From NCBI GenBank assembly GCA_026003195.1, contig BPGU01000004.1, forward strand, positions 444,317 to 508,316: DNA of 64,000 nt, read 5' to 3'. A program made the position numbers and the translations under genes. Positions 3,391 through 10,466 of the stretch are shown here, piece after piece (positions within the stretch are counted from its first letter, which is position 1; the number at the start of each line of letters is the position of its first letter). The notes beneath the pieces are model-generated. The model did no database searches. It had not been told where the DNA came from and worked only from the letters and a program-made list of their open reading frames with translations. This DNA is from Armatimonadota bacterium (GTDB lineage Bacteria; Armatimonadota; HRBIN16).

Positions 3391-3471
3391 GATGGCGCCC
3401 TCGGAGGGATTCGAACCCCCGACGCCCTCCTTAGGACGGAGGCGCTCTGTCCACTGAGCTACGAGGGCGCG
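3391..3471. repeat. Left attachment repeat (attL-like), 81 bp
   Basis: Identical over 81 bases to 10386-10466 in the same orientation, and the sequences diverge immediately on both sides. It covers the whole 76-base tRNA-Arg plus two bases past the CCA and three bases before the 5' end. This is unusually long for a core repeat, since most tRNA-targeting integrases duplicate only the 3' part. Confidence 0.9.
3393..3468 (-). tRNA. tRNA-Arg (anticodon CCT), left copy
   Basis: Cloverleaf with acceptor GCCCTCG paired to CGAGGGC, T8-A9, anticodon stem CCTCC/GGAGG around loop GTCCTAA (anticodon CCT, decoding AGG), T-loop TTCGAAT, discriminator G and encoded CCA. It is identical to the right copy. 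Its 5' flank is element DNA, so it would need a promoter supplied by the element, and I see no convincing one. It may be a silent copy. Confidence 0.93.
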
Positions 3472-3508
3472 AGATGTTGTACCCTGTTCGCCTGATTGCC
3501 CCAGAATC

Positions 3509-3524
3509 ACACAACATCTTGTGT
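3509..3524. repeat. 16-bp near-palindrome, left arm site
   Basis: ACACAACATCTTGTGT. Its exact reverse complement occurs at 10341-10356 near the other end. Each copy is itself nearly palindromic around ACA-CAA/TTG-TGT. The position, between the tRNA repeat and the integrase start, fits an integrase or excisionase arm-binding site or an operator. Binding is inference. Confidence 0.55.
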
Positions 3525-3553
3525 CCACACAAACACAAGCAGGAGGGCACAAG

Positions 3554-4483
3554 ATGGAGCAGAACGCCTCTTTTCGAGTCACTGACACAAACCCGATTTT
3601 GCTGGCATTCCAGCTCTGGCAGGAACACCTGCACGCGAAAGGGTGCACCGTAAAGACCCTCAGCACCTACAGGGAACTGGTGCGTCCCTTCGTGACCTAC
3701 CTCTGCCAGTGCGCCCCTGACCTGGACAGCGTAACCCCTTCGCACATCGTGAACTACCTCAGTCAGCGCAGACAGTGCGGACTCTCCTCACACACCCTGC
3801 ATACCGACTGGCAGAAGGCACGCGCCTTCTGGAACTGGTGCTTGCGCATGGAACTGACTTCCAATAACCCCTTCGCGAAGGTGGAGCCACCCAAGCGCGA
3901 ACAAGTGCTCAAACCTGCCCTCACCCTTGAAGAGGTACAGAAACTGCTGCAAGCGTGTGAGGGCAGAGAGTGGTTGCCTCTTCGCGACAGAGCACTGATT
4001 CTGCTGCTGCTGGACACCGGTCTGCGCATCCACGAGGCGCACTCGTTGCGTGTGGGTGACGCCATGCAAGACACACTGGTCATCAAGGGCAAAGGCGGTA
4101 AACAGCGCGTGGTGGTGTTGAGTGCAGAGGTGAGGCTTGCGGTGCAACGTTACCTGAAGGCTTACCAGACACAGCAGCAAGTGAAACTGCACACGGACAG
4201 TCCCCTGTGGTGGGGAGCCTCTGGCGCGTTGACTTTGCACGGGATCAAACTGGCAGTGCGCAGAGCGGGCAGACGCGCTGGCTTGAAACTGGGAGCACAC
4301 CAGTTGCGCAGAACGTTCGCCACGTGGAGCCTGCGCAACGGCATTGACTTGGAAAGACTGCGCTTGCTCATGGGTCACAGCGACATCAAGACCACACAGC
4401 AATACCTGTCGTTGGTGGAGCAAGACCTCAAGCAGGCACACCAGCAGCATAGTCCGTTGAATCTTCTCAGAGGACGCAGGTAG
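3554..4483 (+). CDS. Tyrosine recombinase / integrase
   Basis: A 309-residue site-specific recombinase expected to integrate and excise this element at tRNA-Arg. An N-terminal SAM-like core-binding domain covers about residues 15-105 and the catalytic domain about 120-300. The catalytic residues are all visible: Arg in TGLRIHEAHSL, Lys in the beta-hairpin KGKGGKQR, HQLRR (H-x-x-R), the second His in MGHSDIKTT and the nucleophile Tyr in QQYLSL. The ATG at 3554 has AGGAGG eight bases upstream. A GTG at 3521 in frame would add 11 residues but overlaps the palindromic arm site. The gene points away from the left tRNA. The downstream perfect inverted repeat at 4490-4558 may end its transcript. Confidence 0.93.
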   Translation: MEQNASFRVTDTNPILLAFQLWQEHLHAKGCTVKTLSTYRELVRPFVTYLCQCAPDLDSVTPSHIVNYLSQRRQCGLSSHTLHTDWQKARAFWNWCLRMELTSNNPFAKVEPPKREQVLKPALTLEEVQKLLQACEGREWLPLRDRALILLLLDTGLRIHEAHSLRVGDAMQDTLVIKGKGGKQRVVVLSAEVRLAVQRYLKAYQTQQQVKLHTDSPLWWGASGALTLHGIKLAVRRAGRRAGLKLGAHQLRRTFATWSLRNGIDLERLRLLMGHSDIKTTQQYLSLVEQDLKQAHQQHSPLNLLRGRR

Positions 4484-4616: not shown

Positions 4617-4684
4617 GCGTGTCGGTAGGCGTGTGCACTGCCTCTTAAGTGTCCACTGCCCTGTCCAGTGGACAACCGACACGC
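4617..4684. repeat. Nested inverted repeats upstream of regulator gene
   Basis: An outer 10-bp arm GCGTGTCGGT (4617-4626) pairs with 4675-4684. Inside it, GTCCACTG (4651-4658) pairs with 4666-4673. This double hairpin ends 27 bases before the start at 4712, after a TATATT -10-like hexamer at 4605-4610. It could be an operator for the encoded HTH protein or a structured 5' leader. Confidence 0.5.
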
Positions 4685-4711
4685 GAACAGCACCTGACAG
4701 GGAGGTGCAAC

Positions 4712-5602
4712 GTGCTGATTGACGACCTGAAGCAGCTCAAAGACTGGCGTGACCTCAGGAACCCTCAATTGCTGGAACGCGCCCAGCGGTTTGCCGACTG
4801 GTATTGCAGCATATGCATTGACGCCAATGAGAAGCTTCGGTTGGGAACCGAACTCTGGCAACAAGCACGAAACGACCTGCGTGTGTTTGCTCAGATTCTT
4901 CAACACTCCAGCAGCCTCCTCGGCTGGCAGTTGATTGCAGAAATCGTTTTGGTAGGTGCTGAGATTGGGACACGTTACCGCAAAGAGATTATGTCCTACG
5001 CACGGGTACTGAATTGGTATAGCGGACTTCAGGTGCAAAATGAATGGGATGCTGCTTTTGCGGTGTGTGCATACGAGTGTTGGTGGAAAGTGTTTTGTTC
5101 AAGCGAAGCGCTAAACCTGCTGCTCTGTGCAAATTCCTACAATCCAGTCAGTTCCCGTCTGTTAGCAGCAGAATTGCTGGCAGCACGTTATGATGCTACT
5201 ACAACAGATGTCTTCGCCGCTGCTCTCGAACAGTTGGGTTGTGAACCGAAGAGAAATGAGAGCGAACCACTAAGGCGTGAGGCCCGCATCAACCGCAACC
5301 CGGGTGGCACTGGATGCAACCAAGAGCGCGAGATTGCCGAGAGCCAGTTGCCCCTTCCCGAAGATGCCCCTTCACCACTGGAAACCGCAATCAGCGACGA
5401 GGCTGACCCGGCAGAGGTGGTGGCTGACAGAGACGTCGTAGAGCGTGCGATCGCCCGTTTCGGAAAGCGTACCGCAGACCTCTTGCGCCTGATGCTACAA
5501 GGCTACACCGCTACCGAAGCTGCCCAAGAGCTGGGCATCTCCCCTGCCACTGCCCGCAAGCTTCTGGAACGCGCCCGCAAACAATTTTCACGAAACCCCT
5601 GA
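4712..5602 (+). CDS. Sigma-70 region-4-like HTH protein of the element
   Basis: A 296-residue protein. Residues about 1-170 are helical and not recognisable, with several Trp and Cys. A linker rich in Glu, Pro and Asp follows. The last 60 residues form a sigma region-4 / LuxR-like helix-turn-helix: LLRLMLQGYTATEAAQELGI then SPATARKLLERARKQF. I chose the GTG at 4712 because GGGAGG lies just before it; the frame stays open back to 4649, but that stretch forms the nested hairpins. It lies between the integrase and the replication cassette and may be a transcription regulator or divergent sigma factor. No region 2 is evident, so a free-standing sigma role is uncertain. Confidence 0.65.
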   Translation: MLIDDLKQLKDWRDLRNPQLLERAQRFADWYCSICIDANEKLRLGTELWQQARNDLRVFAQILQHSSSLLGWQLIAEIVLVGAEIGTRYRKEIMSYARVLNWYSGLQVQNEWDAAFAVCAYECWWKVFCSSEALNLLLCANSYNPVSSRLLAAELLAARYDATTTDVFAAALEQLGCEPKRNESEPLRREARINRNPGGTGCNQEREIAESQLPLPEDAPSPLETAISDEADPAEVVADRDVVERAIARFGKRTADLLRLMLQGYTATEAAQELGISPATARKLLERARKQFSRNP

Positions 5603-5630
5603 AAAATCGCCTGAAACTGTACACGTTTTG

Positions 5631-5673
5631 CCCCCTCTCACCTGCTTATATAGTGGGAAGCAAAGAGAGGGGG
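5631..5673 (+). promoter_or_regulatory. Possible promoter and RBS-sequestering hairpin
   Basis: TATAGT at 5649-5654 with a weak TTGCCC about 15 bases upstream suggests a promoter in the 78-base gap. A perfect 9-bp inverted repeat, CCCCCTCTC (5631-5639) and GAGAGGGGG (5665-5673), has its 3' arm as the ribosome site of the 5681 ORF and is followed by TTTTCG. It could therefore mask translation or act as a weak terminator. This is sequence inference only. Confidence 0.3.
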
Positions 5674-5680
5674 TTTTCGT

Positions 5681-5881
5681 ATGGCGAAGGCAATCCTTGT
5701 GACCGACATCCGGCACAGTGACCGCCCCCTGCTGGCGAGCAGTGACCCTGAAGTGTTGCGAGCCGTTGGGGACGCCATTAAGGCACTGTTTGACCGGTGG
5801 GAGGCAGAAGCACGCGCCGACCTTGAGGTAGAACGCCTGAGGCGACTGGTGGAGGTGGACGAGGGAGAGGACGAGCGGTGA
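5681..5881 (+). CDS. Small acidic hypothetical protein of the element
   Basis: A 66-residue protein with ATG preceded by GAGAGGGGG. It is predicted helical, with a highly charged second half (RWEAEARADLEVERLRRLVE) ending in an acidic tail VDEGEDER. No family is recognised. It sits between the HTH protein and the RepA-like ATPase, and a strong hairpin follows 26 bases after its stop. It could be a small regulator or accessory replication protein. Confidence 0.5.
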   Translation: MAKAILVTDIRHSDRPLLASSDPEVLRAVGDAIKALFDRWEAEARADLEVERLRRLVEVDEGEDER

Positions 5882-5907
5882 GGCGGTGGAGCCTGCCACA
5901 AAGTGGA

Positions 5908-5935
5908 AGCCCGCTCTCCGACCAGAGAGCGGGCT
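5908..5935. terminator. 11-bp GC-rich hairpin before the helicase gene
   Basis: AGCCCGCTCTC (5908-5918), a six-base loop and the perfect complement at 5925-5935. No T-tract follows on the forward strand. Lying between the 5681 ORF and the ATPase start at 5970, it could attenuate transcription into the ATPase gene. Its presence also argues against the in-frame GTG at 5886 as the ATPase start. Confidence 0.45.
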
Positions 5936-5969
5936 GCGGACACAACTTTCTCAGCGGGGGACTGCCAAA

Positions 5970-7376
5970 ATGAGTATACCACAACAGACAAATGGGAACA
6001 AGAATCTGCAGGCACGCGCGAAGGAAGCCACAGACACCATCTTGCGCGAGGTCAACCGACACGCACCCGAAGACCAGTCCGGCGCACTGCAGCAGCTGCT
6101 GGGTGACTGGCTCGCTACCAACCGCGACCCCATCCTGCGCGAACTGGTGCTCGGTGAGGTGTCGCGACGGCTCCGGCTACCCGTCGGAAGCCTCAAACAG
6201 CTGGTGAAACCCGAACCAAACCTACCTAACACTATAGGGTGTGTTATGTTAGGTAGGTTGTATACCCTCAAAGAGCTGCGTGCCCTGCGCGAACACCAGA
6301 GCGAAACCGCTGAAGAGAGCCTTCCCCTGTTCGGCTTGAAAGGCATCATCCGCAAGGGCAGAACGCACCTGCTCGCTGGCAAGCCCCGTGTGGGCAAAAC
6401 CGAAACCCTCTTTCGCGGTGGAATGCTCCACTGGCACAACGAGCGCGTGCTCTACCTCTCGGAAGAGTATGAGGATGACTGGAGCATCCGACTGTCTTCC
6501 TTCGATGAGGATGAGTTGCCGGAACACGTGGACATCTGGCTGTGCGCGGGTGAACCGCGAGAGGCACTGTTGCAGAAGATTCAGCAGGGTTCCTACAGCG
6601 TGGTGGTGCTGGACACCGTGCGCGGCGTCTGGCGGTTGCGTGATGAGTTGCACCCCTCTCGCGTGGTAGACGACCTCATGCCTCTGATTAGTCTGCAGCG
6701 TCAGATGGGGTTCACGCTCATCTGTCTGCACCACGAGCGCAAGGCGGAAGGAGAGGCGATTACCGACCGGTTCGCGGGTACAAACGCGCTGTCGGCAATG
6801 TTCGACATGCTCATCAGTCTGGCTCCGAAGGGCGAAGACGGGTTACTGCTGACCTACGAGGGACGCACCAGCAAGGGCGGTAGTCTGCTTCTGCAGTGGA
6901 AGGGTGATGAGCTGTGCTACGTGGGCGAGGCAGACCTCGTGGAGTTCCGAACACTGGCGCAACGGGTGGAGGGCATCATCTACAGCGCGGGCAGAATGCT
7001 TACCACGAAAGAGGTCTGGCAAGAACTGGGCGAGCCACGTCCGTCGCTTTCACACATGAAGAACGTCTTGGAGCATCTTCTGGAGAACGGACGTATACAG
7101 CGCGAGCCAAAAGAGGAGCGCAAAGGTGCTACCTACCGGTGGTATGCGTCCACAAACCTACCTAACATAACACATCCTATAGTGTCAGGTAGGTTGGACG
7201 CGCCCACAAACCTACCTAACATAACACATCCTATAGTGTCAGGTAGGTTGGAACACCCCTCCGACTCTTCTGTCCAGCCCGAAGAAGACCCCTTCACGCA
7301 AGCCGAAGACGGTTTGCTGGCATACGACCTCGTCAGCGGGCACTGGTACCCCGCAGGCAGCGGAGGTAGTCCGTGA
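5970..7376 (+). CDS. RepA-like RecA-fold helicase/ATPase with embedded palindromes
   Basis: A 468-residue protein resembling AAA_25/RepA-type hexameric replicative ATPases. An N-terminal helical domain (1-80) precedes a RecA-like core with Walker A AGKPRVGKTET, Walker B SVVVLDTVRG and the sensor-like ICLHHERKAEGE. A C-terminal winged-helix-like region lies at about 330-390. Its likely role is to unwind the element's replication origin. The ATG at 5970 follows AGCGGGGGA; a longer GTG-started frame would include the hairpin at 5908-5935. Three 37-bp palindromic repeats are embedded in frame: one in the linker before the ATPase core (residues about 84-96) and two tandem near the C-terminus (about 396-426). 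They encode NLPNTIGCVMLGRL in one orientation and NLPNITHPIVSGRL in the other. The stop overlaps the next start (TGATG). Confidence 0.8.
   Translation: MSIPQQTNGNKNLQARAKEATDTILREVNRHAPEDQSGALQQLLGDWLATNRDPILRELVLGEVSRRLRLPVGSLKQLVKPEPNLPNTIGCVMLGRLYTLKELRALREHQSETAEESLPLFGLKGIIRKGRTHLLAGKPRVGKTETLFRGGMLHWHNERVLYLSEEYEDDWSIRLSSFDEDELPEHVDIWLCAGEPREALLQKIQQGSYSVVVLDTVRGVWRLRDELHPSRVVDDLMPLISLQRQMGFTLICLHHERKAEGEAITDRFAGTNALSAMFDMLISLAPKGEDGLLLTYEGRTSKGGSLLLQWKGDELCYVGEADLVEFRTLAQRVEGIIYSAGRMLTTKEVWQELGEPRPSLSHMKNVLEHLLENGRIQREPKEERKGATYRWYASTNLPNITHPIVSGRLDAPTNLPNITHPIVSGRLEHPSDSSVQPEEDPFTQAEDGLLAYDLVSGHWYPAGSGGSP
6221..6257 (+). repeat. 37-bp palindromic repeat, copy A (forward)
   Basis: The ends CCTACCTAAC and GTTAGGTAGG are perfect 10-bp inverted repeats, with flanking AA/TT extending the match. 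Its reverse complement matches copies B and C except at two positions. It keeps the ATPase frame open and lies in the linker between the N-terminal domain and the Walker A core. Confidence 0.85.
7157..7193 (-). repeat. 37-bp palindromic repeat, copy B (reverse)
   Basis: Reverse-orientation copy of the 6221-6257 repeat, with one mismatch between its arms (GTCAGGTAGG instead of GTTAGGTAGG). It is part of a 54-bp tandem duplication with copy C, which gives two 18-residue protein repeats. Confidence 0.85.
7211..7247 (-). repeat. 37-bp palindromic repeat, copy C (reverse)
   Basis: Identical to copy B over all 37 bases and exactly 54 bases downstream. The flanking CCACAAA and TTGGA are also shared, so B and C arose by tandem duplication of a unit that already contained the palindrome. 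Confidence 0.85.
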
Positions 7377-7696
7377 TGAGCTTCGGGGAACTGCGGAAGG
7401 AAATCATGTTGCTGTTGCGCTGGCACGCGGGCACACTGCGACTGCCCATGGTACGGTCAGAGGAGCATACTTACCTGCTGGCGGTGCTTGACCTGGTAGA
7501 CGACCTGAAGGCGACCCTGCAGGCGTATATTGCCGAGCGCAGCATCCGGCAGGACGTAGAAGCCCTTGAATCACGTCACGAAGCGCAGGTGCAGCAGATG
7601 CTTGCTGATGAGGAGCGCGTGGTGCGTACGTTCCAAGCAGCACTCAAACACGAGAAACCGCTGGAGCAGCGACTGCGTGAGGAGGTGGAGGTATGA
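7376..7696 (+). CDS. Small helical hypothetical protein of the element
   Basis: A 106-residue protein whose ATG overlaps the ATPase stop (TGATG), with GGAGG upstream, so it is translationally coupled to the helicase. It is predicted almost entirely helical with a coiled-coil-like C-terminal half (about 45-106, many Glu, Gln, Arg). No family is recognised. Position and coupling suggest an accessory factor for the ATPase, such as a loader or primase partner. This is inference. Confidence 0.65.
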   Translation: MSFGELRKEIMLLLRWHAGTLRLPMVRSEEHTYLLAVLDLVDDLKATLQAYIAERSIRQDVEALESRHEAQVQQMLADEERVVRTFQAALKHEKPLEQRLREEVEV

Positions 7697-7788
7697 GCAC
7701 ATCTTGCCCGACCCGTCAGGGGACGGTTGACATAGAGCATACCAACCCGACCGACGGTAAACCAACACACAAGGAGGTAACGACATGA
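7693..7788 (+). CDS. 31-residue mini-ORF coupled at both ends
   Basis: ATGA overlaps link it to the preceding gene (ATG 7693 inside stop 7694-7696) and to the next gene (its stop TGA 7786-7788 overlaps ATG 7785). The product starts MSTSCPTRQGTVDIEHTNP and is polar with no hydrophobic segment. GGAGGTGGAGGT precedes the start. It may be a true small protein or a leader peptide carrying ribosomes to the OB-fold gene. The double overlap makes chance less likely but does not prove expression. Confidence 0.45.
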   Translation: MSTSCPTRQGTVDIEHTNPTDGKPTHKEVTT

Positions 7789-8255
7789 AACTGGTGGTGA
7801 CGGCACAAGCACAGACCTTGCCCGACGACGTCTACACGGTGGAACTGGTGGACGTGCGGGAGCAGCAAGGAGCCTACGGCGAGCAGTTCGTGTGGCAGTT
7901 GCGCGTGGCGGAAGGCGAGTTTGAGGGCACGGAACTGCGAGCGTGGACGAACGCCAGCACGGCACTCAATGCGAAGGCGGTGAAGTGGGCAGCAGCGTTT
8001 GCGGGCAAGCCCTTCGCAACGGGCGACACGATTGACTTGGACGCGCTGAAGGGCAAGCGTGCCCGGGCGGTAGTGCAAGCGAAGCAGACCGCTGACGCGC
8101 GCGTGTTTGCGCGGGTGACCGACATTCTGCCCGTTCGGCGCGTGCAGGTCGGTCAGCGGGTCAAGCATGGCATGGTCGCGGTTCCTGCCACCAGTCAGGG
8201 GTTCTACGAGATGGCGGACGACGAAGACCCTGACGACCCCTTCGCGCAGGCGTAA
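7785..8255 (+). CDS. OB-fold-like, phage DUF669/SSB-type protein
   Basis: A 156-residue protein with AAGGAGG seven bases before the ATG. The pattern DVYTVELVDVREQQGAYG, then QFVWQLRVAEGEFEGTELRA, then a helical segment and LKGKRARAVVQAKQ resembles phage DUF669-type single-strand-binding proteins, whose core is an OB fold. The C-terminus is acidic (EMADDEDPDDPF), as in SSB tails that recruit partners. Lying beside a helicase and a VRR-NUC nuclease, it probably binds single-stranded DNA during element replication or repair. The family assignment is by pattern, not alignment. Confidence 0.6.
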   Translation: MKLVVTAQAQTLPDDVYTVELVDVREQQGAYGEQFVWQLRVAEGEFEGTELRAWTNASTALNAKAVKWAAAFAGKPFATGDTIDLDALKGKRARAVVQAKQTADARVFARVTDILPVRRVQVGQRVKHGMVAVPATSQGFYEMADDEDPDDPFAQA

Positions 8256-8266
8256 GAGAGGGAAGT

Positions 8267-8289
8267 GGGCAGGCGCGTGCGCCCTGCCC
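8267..8289. terminator. GC-rich hairpin between element genes
   Basis: GGGCAGG (8267-8273) pairs with CCTGCCC (8283-8289), with additional GCGC pairing possible in the loop, and C-rich sequence follows. It lies in the 68-base gap between the OB-fold gene and the next ORF. It may be a partial terminator or a processing hairpin. Confidence 0.4.
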
Positions 8290-8323
8290 GCCCCCAAAAC
8301 ACCAACGAAAGGAGTGTATAGAC

Positions 8324-8671
8324 ATGCAGACAGTTACACGAACAGCAAGGCGAGTCCTCTACACCCGTGACGGCAGGCACAGCGGTTGCGTGCTGGATGG
8401 CTTCCGACTGGTGCGCCGTGTGCAGGCGAGCAAGCACCAGTTGCGACAGCCCCCAGCGTGGGCGTTTGAGCGCCACATTCTGGAGCAGGCACACGAGGCA
8501 GGCGCGTCACTGGTGGAGGTGCACGACGTGGAGAGTGGCATCACCTACATCGCGCCACTGGCGACGCTGTGGCAGAAGGGCATCCGCATCCAGCGCGGAC
8601 ATGGCGAGCAGATTGCCCTGCCGTTGAACCTGTGGCACAGGGCAGACCCACGACAGCCGAAGCTCTTCTAA
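8324..8671 (+). CDS. Hypothetical protein of the element
   Basis: A 115-residue basic protein (many Arg and His) with AAAGGAG ten bases before the ATG. Its composition (SKHQLRQPPAWAFERHILEQ, then SLVEVHDVESGITYIAPLAT) suggests a small alpha/beta fold. No known family is recognised. It is encoded between the OB-fold and VRR-NUC genes in the same direction, so a DNA-transaction role is plausible. Confidence 0.6.
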   Translation: MQTVTRTARRVLYTRDGRHSGCVLDGFRLVRRVQASKHQLRQPPAWAFERHILEQAHEAGASLVEVHDVESGITYIAPLATLWQKGIRIQRGHGEQIALPLNLWHRADPRQPKLF

Positions 8672-8682
8672 AACCGCCGGAA

Positions 8683-9021
8683 ATGGCTCCAGAAGGCTCG
8701 TACAGACGCGAAAAGGTCAGTGCCCATAGCCAGCACGCCCGTGCCATCGTCTGCTACTTACAGAAGCGTGGCGCGTGGTGTGCCCGAATTCGTGGCACAT
8801 GGGGACAGCGACGCGGTCTGCCTGACATTCTGGCGTGCTGGCGTGGGCACTTGATTGCCATTGAGGTCAAGACCGGCAAGCACGCCAGACTGTCCCCACA
8901 GCAGAAGCGGGAACACGAGGCGCTACGTGCTGCAGGCGCGACGGTGCTGGTGGGCGATGCCACTGAAGTCGTGCGCCAGTTGGAAGCCCTTACAGGAGAG
9001 CCTCAGGGCAGGTTGCTGTGA
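8683..9021 (+). CDS. VRR-NUC domain nuclease
   Basis: A 112-residue protein consisting almost entirely of a VRR-NUC fold, a PD-(D/E)XK-type nuclease domain found in phages and in FAN1-like enzymes. The core is visible: RIRGTWGQRRGLPDILACW (catalytic Asp in GLPD), then LIAIEVKTGKHARLSPQQ (Glu-x-Lys, EVK), and the terminal helix ATVLVGDATEVVRQLEAL. The start at 8683 is 12 bases after the preceding stop with only a weak CCGGAA site, so translation may depend on coupling. An open frame extends to 8569 but overlaps the previous gene. Such single-domain nucleases often act as junction-resolving or structure-specific enzymes in replication modules. Confidence 0.85.
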   Translation: MAPEGSYRREKVSAHSQHARAIVCYLQKRGAWCARIRGTWGQRRGLPDILACWRGHLIAIEVKTGKHARLSPQQKREHEALRAAGATVLVGDATEVVRQLEALTGEPQGRLL

Positions 9022-9055
9022 GGCAGGGAATAAGTGCTTGAGGAGGTGAGCAGCA

Positions 9056-9289
9056 ATGACACACAACCTTTGCAGGGACGCTGTAGTCAACATGCAGCAC
9101 GCCACAGGTGCGTTACGGCGGTTGTATACTCTGGTGGCGATGGGCGCGGTTCCTTCGCGTGAGGACTACGCGCAGGTGCACCGACAGGCGACGGAACTGA
9201 ATCAAGCCTTCCACCGTCTGTTGAAGGCACTCAAGGCGCAGGGCATGTTTGAGGATGATTCAAGCAGTCTACCACCAGCGGAGCGTTAG
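9056..9289 (+). CDS. Small helical hypothetical protein of the element
   Basis: A 77-residue protein with a strong GAGGAGGTGAG ribosome site. It is helical (NMQHATGALRRLYTLV, EDYAQVHRQATELNQAFHRL) with an acidic-polar tail. No family is recognised. Its TAG stop lies within the first unit of the 12-bp repeat array, so the array directly follows the coding region and would be transcribed with it. Confidence 0.6.
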   Translation: MTHNLCRDAVVNMQHATGALRRLYTLVAMGAVPSREDYAQVHRQATELNQAFHRLLKALKAQGMFEDDSSSLPPAER

Positions 9290-9363
9290 CGCAGGCGTTA
9301 GCACTAACGTTAGCGCAGGCGTTAGCGCAGGCGTTAGCACTAACGTTAGCGCAGGCGTTAGCG
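9286..9363. repeat. Iteron-like array of 12-bp repeats
   Basis: Six complete 12-mers begin at 9286 in the order a-b-a-a-b-a, where a is TTAGCGCAGGCG and b is TTAGCACTAACG, followed by a partial seventh unit. This is the same as two 36-bp direct repeats. Unit b with its flank contains the palindrome CGTTAGCACTAACG. A short AT-richer stretch with duplicated GTTTACAAAA follows at 9417-9436. This arrangement resembles an iteron origin or partition site; function is inferred. Confidence 0.7.
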
Positions 9364-9378
9364 TAGTGAGAGCATGAC

Positions 9379-10340: not shown

Positions 10341-10356
10341 ACACAAGATGTTGTGT
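10341..10356. repeat. 16-bp near-palindrome, right arm site
   Basis: ACACAAGATGTTGTGT, the exact reverse complement of 3509-3524. It lies 30 bases inside the right tRNA repeat, while the left copy lies 38 bases inside the left repeat. The near-symmetric placement suggests a shared binding protein at both ends. Confidence 0.55.
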
Positions 10357-10385
10357 CCCTGTGGGGTAAGAGGTAGCATATATGG

Positions 10386-10466
10386 GATGGCGCCCTCGGA
10401 GGGATTCGAACCCCCGACGCCCTCCTTAGGACGGAGGCGCTCTGTCCACTGAGCTACGAGGGCGCG
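10386..10466. repeat. Right attachment repeat (attR-like), 81 bp
   Basis: Identical to 3391-3471 over 81 bases and in the same orientation. The right flank is chromosomal, just before the GHL10 gene, and supplies the 5' side of the tRNA. This copy is therefore likely the original tRNA locus with its native promoter. Confidence 0.9.
10388..10463 (-). tRNA. tRNA-Arg (anticodon CCT), right copy
   Basis: Same 76-base cloverleaf as the left copy, with encoded CCA and anticodon CCT (codon AGG). Its 3' end faces the mobile element and its 5' flank is chromosomal, so it is probably the expressed copy. Confidence 0.93.

Follow-up and report, generated by a model that had tools for sequence, protein, structure and literature searches.

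Palindromes in the coding linkers of a Rep helicase gene are probable initiator-binding sites of a tRNA-integrated element from the Armatimonadota

Why should one short, nearly palindromic DNA sequence occur three times within a single gene, in both orientations, and be translated each time? The question is raised by an ATPase gene (rep) in the window, the 64,000-nucleotide stretch of DNA analysed here, in whose numbering all positions are given unless a locus is named. The host is a hot-spring-type bacterium of the genus HRBIN16 (Armatimonadota) with a genome of 4.58 Mb, and rep is carried by an integrative element that measures 6995 bp from repeat to repeat and is inserted in tRNA-Arg (Table 1). 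A 29-bp inverted repeat (83% identity) lies just within both ends of the element (3496-3524 and 10341-10369) and possibly represents the integrase arm sites. The small protein encoded after rep is a possible SSB-like protein.

Table 1 Features of the integrative element and of the rep gene
Feature	Position	Strand	Description
Left end, 81-bp perfect direct repeat	3391..3471		contains tRNA-Arg(CCT) 3393-3468 (-)
Tyrosine integrase	3521..4483	+	Phage_integrase E 1.3e-29; phrog_1
HTH protein, C-terminal sigma-70 region-4-like	4649..5602	+	Sigma70_r4_2 4.4e-07
rep	5970..7376	+	N-terminal helical domain, SF4 RecA-like (AAA_25) helicase, winged helix, disordered tail
Palindrome copy 1	6219-6259	+	linker between N-terminal domain and helicase; peptide NLPNTIGCVMLGRL
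Helicase and winged-helix cassette	6306..7145	+	translated homology to G002 rep, 65% identity
Winged-helix-like domain	6930..7148	+	secondary structure in models; candidate iteron-binding domain
Palindrome copy 2	7155-7195	- (reversed)	C-terminal tail; peptide NLPNITHPIVSGRL
Palindrome copy 3	7209-7249	- (reversed)	same sequence as copy 2, displaced by 54 bp
Small protein after rep	7785..8255	+	no Pfam match; rep of G002 and G009 has a similar-looking protein after it
Hjc / VRR-NUC type nuclease	8569..9021	+	Hjc 1.5e-06; phrog_93 4.1e-18
Right end, second 81-bp repeat	10386..10466		contains tRNA-Arg(CCT) 10388-10463 (-)

The coordinates confirm three copies within rep, one forward and two reversed, as a sequence-only reading of this DNA had stated. 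The same reading described a 37-bp palindrome; the repeat stands, the length is 41 bp and the symmetry is confined to the arms. These are 13 bp each (AACCTACCTAACA and TGTTAGGTAGGTT) and pair at all 13 positions in copy 1; copies 2 and 3, which are parts of one 54-bp tandem duplication, each have a single mismatch (12 of 13 paired). The 15-nt centre between the arms (CTATAGGGTGTGTTA) is asymmetric, so that the 41-mer is not a full palindrome and the orientation of each copy is defined by its centre. No such repeat is expected from 100 shuffles of the window. All three copies start in codon phase 0, the sole stop-free frame of the three whichever way the 41-mer is turned; each copy does keep the frame open in both orientations, and the peptides first given for the copies are correct. 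The G+C content of the palindromes is 39% versus 58% for the rep gene.

The helicase domain of the window Rep matches AAA_25 (E 1.5e-10) and resembles the RadA/KaiC/DnaB folds. Most Rep relatives consist of a zinc-finger/Toprim primase, an SF4 helicase and a winged helix, and as a group they are T7 gp4-like by profile (3e-14). The primase N-terminus is present in the relatives L005, L064, L067, L070 (Toprim only) and L081 and absent from the window Rep, and the winged-helix region of the relatives scores to HTH_12, Penicillinase_R and HTH_5. In two AlphaFold2 models pLDDT is ~85-94 for the greater part of the helicase and winged helix and <50 at residues 80-97 and 398-468, the parts encoded by the palindromes. 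The models thus bear out the earlier placement of the copies in linkers, and the palindromes are predicted to encode interdomain linker in the window Rep.

The palindromic elements of Rickettsia are dispersed mobile repeats that are read in frame as protein, and the copies in rep had been likened to them. A Rickettsia-type or MITE-like element inserting in frame into genes would suit a palindrome that is in frame, in disordered linkers and in both orientations. Such an element is expected, however, to be dispersed at many unrelated sites and to leave an empty site in orthologues. When mismatches or a variable centre were allowed, the genome contained no copy of the 41-mer outside the three in rep, and the element was absent from the 60 other phylum members searched, nine of which belong to HRBIN16. 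The matching places in the orthologues are occupied by other palindromes, unrelated in sequence, which insertion of a single element family cannot explain. The tempting reading as a Rickettsia-like coding insertion is corrected accordingly: with the 41-mer restricted to one gene, and palindromes of unrelated sequence in its stead in the orthologues, the insertion reading is scarcely credible and was rejected, and the presence of different palindromes in the same places makes a built-in origin far likelier than a selfish insert.

The relatives of Rep were found only by whole-genome protein and profile searches; with the single protein as query, no homologue was detected among phages, plasmids, IMG/VR and GTDB contigs. 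The elements carrying a related rep are tRNA-integrated and ~5.5-7.8 kb long where both ends were found. Palindromes occupy two places, the linker ahead of the helicase domain and the tail beyond the winged helix, in 11 of the 13 rep genes examined among the Armatimonadota homologues, with a spacing of 936-1040 bp between the centres of the first and second place (P1 to P2). The site sequence is particular to each of the homologues examined and recurs in every copy of the site belonging to that gene. The G009 gene (AACCTAACCTGGCA...TGCCAGGTCAGGTT) repeats the window layout, one copy forward before the helicase and two reversed in the tail, while G002 has ACCTTGCA-based sites, one per place and inverted. 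HR16 (G003), a sister genome in the genus HRBIN16, carries TTTGTTCCACCAC...GTGGTGGAACAAA twice between genes, just outside rep, and once in the 3' end of rep. Sites in family f39 (three elements in G241, two in G253 and two in G249) and in G005 are mostly tandem 8-bp units such as TCTGGCAA, ATTGCACT, ATTCGTGC, TCGGAAAC and GCAACTCC, which in most f39 sites surround an AT-containing core; Tandem Repeats Finder independently reports the 8-bp arrays in L064-L067, L070 and L071. The arms in the window and in its HRBIN16 relatives are not clean tandem 8-mers. The window arms do fit RYYYAAC...GTTRRRY by eye, as in an integron attC site; the arms of the other elements do not, and this candidate was dropped.

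The cores are of TATA, ATAG, TTAA or CTAA type and usually asymmetric; those of TATA or TTAA/CTAAT type are short (~12-16 bp), often with a G/C run. Copies are clearly inverted in seven of the 11 two-place genes, and also in G247, where both lie in the tail 85 bp apart. In three of the 11 (G241b, G253a and G005) the sites are nearly symmetric and in one (G249b) the copies are direct; orientation is thus not universal. The encoded peptides are not conserved among the homologues. Position and palindromic structure are conserved, whereas the sequence is not, be it of the peptide or of the DNA. The sequence-only reading would have been refuted by segments that are kept at the protein level without being palindromic in the DNA; these were looked for and the opposite was found, the palindromic structure being kept and the protein not.

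The palindromes are not a side effect of the protein sequence. In 12 of 13 rep genes the score of the two best palindromes exceeded that of all synonymous-codon shuffles (20 per gene), with G002 at the edge of its shuffles. Of 14 rep genes, 11 contain repeated palindromes within a single ORF, compared with 14 of 375 other ORFs of at least 200 aa (Fisher p 2e-12). This control is not fully blind, as the G005 gene was retained in the rep set on account of its palindromes despite a weak protein score, and several of the 14 other ORFs are themselves AAA_25 rep-like genes (e.g. L050, L056 and L076).

Comparison of these sequences suggests that the palindromes are probably cis-acting initiator-binding sites, the origin modules of the tRNA-integrated element, embedded in both disordered linkers of Rep. 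The Rep encoded by the same gene would bind them, its C-terminal winged helix recognising the half-sites, which would be the 8-bp iterons in most f39 relatives. The strands would open at the core of TATA/TTAA type. The pair of inverted modules would load the helicase, with its own or the host primase, on opposite strands or, alternatively, would be looped together; replication would then start after excision of the element. Coding through the sites would be tolerated because the linkers are unstructured. The earlier suggestion that the palindromes are iterons recognised by their own gene product gains indirect support, in that site position is kept as sequence turns over, copies within a gene are identical in concert, most f39 relatives have tandem 8-bp units and iteron similarity correlates better with the winged helix than with the primase or ATPase (see below).

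Other sites and other binders were considered. Seven tandem 12-bp repeats (GCGTTAGCGCAG type) lie at 9283-9366, past the nuclease gene and ahead of the right end of the element; no such array was seen in the relatives examined. It is a possible second iteron array, and could instead be the origin of the window element. Two of the three copies in HR16 lie outside rep, and the true binder of the palindromes could be the HTH protein encoded beside rep. A related proposal is that the palindromes are not an origin but operator or maintenance sites (partition, copy-control) for another element protein, such as this HTH protein. Its sigma-region-4-like gene is directly upstream of rep in the window, as is a gene with a similar HTH in HR16 (L013), where two palindromes flank it, and a dimeric regulator would suit palindromic sites. 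Sites midway through rep and at its 3' end are odd for an operator, however, and a consensus scan of 5600-7800 for a promoter or operator gave no sigma-70-type promoter match. In families whose Rep contains Toprim the sites are linked to rep itself, and it is the winged helix of Rep that tracks iteron similarity; we consider operator or maintenance sites unlikely.

Much less probable is that the palindromes act in the rep mRNA, as hairpins or by long-range pairing of copy 1 with copies 2 and 3, and control translation or stability. The 41-56-mers do fold well as single strands (z -3.3 to -7.3, DNA parameters), but neither tandem 8-bp units in the arms nor a conserved placement on either side of the helicase domain would be expected of an mRNA hairpin, and the direct copies of G249b show that copy-to-copy pairing is not conserved.

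If the winged helix of Rep reads the sites, the two should vary together. Pairwise among eight f39 genes, iteron similarity correlates with winged-helix identity at rho 0.43, compared with 0.20 for the primase and 0.16 for the ATPase, a weak correlation that is only suggestive since the 28 pairs are not independent. G241b and G253a have a common iteron (AGTGCAAT) and winged helices that are 63% identical, whereas G241c, with a primase 80% identical to that of G241b and a winged helix only 48% identical, has a different iteron. Co-resident elements of distinct sequence carry different iterons (three in G241, two in G249, two in G253 and three in G000), as incompatibility would require of compatible replicons. 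The G005 genome contains two identical copies of its element (L081 and L080).

Clear translated homology between the rep genes of the window and G002 is limited to the helicase and winged-helix cassette, and leaves gaps of ~46 bp and 10 bp to the palindromes on its two sides. In G005 (L081:4989-7067) a G009-like primase is followed by a different, unrelated-looking helicase between the palindromes. These two cases indicate that module exchange respects the sites, the linkers being also natural break points. They would also be expected if the palindromes were recombination sites for exchange of the helicase-winged-helix cassette among elements, homology between the window and G002 starting and stopping 10-46 bp away from the palindromes. 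Linkers are, however, where domain swaps would be expected in any case, no recombinase besides the integrase was found, and with site sequences that differ between elements the two partners would not both be recognised by a site-specific recombinase, all of which makes recombination sites highly improbable. An invertible segment between the inverted copies was dropped as a candidate, as sites differ among elements and no dedicated recombinase was found.

Two further tRNA-integrated elements of the same genome, L075 and L076, are 83-86% identical to the window at 7712-9043 and differ in the rep segment; the three are mosaic elements with exchanged replication modules. The Prim-Pol/AAA_25 genes of the other two (L075:4114-6558 and L076:4636-7239) finish with inverted iterons of 9 bp, which lie in frame and translate as VDSVDS...STLSTL and EPVEPV...STTSTG.

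On the reading of the palindromes as origin modules, a bolder and quite tentative proposal is a two-site origin within its own helicase gene, in which inverted, self-matched palindromes bracket the cassette, and protein and sites travel and diversify as a unit. If true, new replication specificities and compatible co-resident elements would arise by the swap of a single segment.

Several known systems share parts of this arrangement, on a non-exhaustive survey of open-access literature. Replication of phage P4 requires two separate cis regions, ori and crr; the P4 helicase belongs to another class than the SF4 Rep, and to our knowledge its repeat regions do not lie within helicase linkers in the arrangement seen here. 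RepA of RSF1010 is a RecA-like hexameric helicase, and ssiA and ssiB are placed on opposite strands, close together in an intergenic origin. The P4 alpha protein combines primase, helicase and winged helix and binds short origin repeats, and in RSF1010 two stem-loop start sites (ssiA and ssiB) and iterons are served by three separate proteins, RepA, RepB' and RepC (PMC4234260). The origin of pRN1 from Sulfolobus is a stem-loop that is conserved in structure and not in sequence and adjoins a primase-helicase-winged-helix gene (PMC4234260); it is a single 100-bp stem-loop without iterons, downstream of a gene for an archaeal prim-pol with an SF3 helicase, whereas the palindromes here are inside the gene. 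SaPI and SCCmec origins are found directly downstream of the respective helicase genes (PMC7581432).

Closer still are origins within genes. The lambda ori lies within gene O, and its iterons, inverted repeats of ~19 bp, are part of the sequence that codes for the initiator binding to them (PMC5043065). The window and its relatives similarly have repeated short sites inside the gene of the putative initiator itself. Lambda has a single iteron cluster, however, and O is not a helicase, whereas here the sites lie on both sides of the helicase domain, ~1 kb apart, and the palindromes are larger than lambda iterons and mostly inverted to each other. In pSK41 (RepA_N) and pT181 the origin falls within the coding region of rep, where it specifies a linker that the protein can function without, and the pSK41 boxes are bound by a winged HTH (PMC5703833). 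The window sites, with their low pLDDT, resemble those of pSK41 in encoding an interdomain linker, but the RepA_N and Rep_trans initiators of pSK41 and pT181 contain no helicase and have one origin within rep. In-gene origins are therefore already known from lambda O and pSK41; what differs here is that the sites are duplicated and bracket the helicase domain.

If the palindromes are origin modules, they form a natural series of matched initiator and site pairs with different recognition sequences at the same gene positions, useful for studying changes of specificity in winged-helix initiators and the emergence of compatible replicons. A single protein could then have two separate stretches of coding linker maintained as DNA sites, and uncharacterised small integrative elements in the Armatimonadota and other phyla would have a simple origin signature. 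Repeated short sites were also observed in the 3' coding tail of AAA_25 helicase genes from other phyla and a viral contig (L054:2099-4408, L061:2675-4882, L055:658-2619, L050:4035-6215 and L027:874-2295), where they encode peptides such as VTSVTSVTS and STSSTSST; in-gene tail iterons may thus be widespread.
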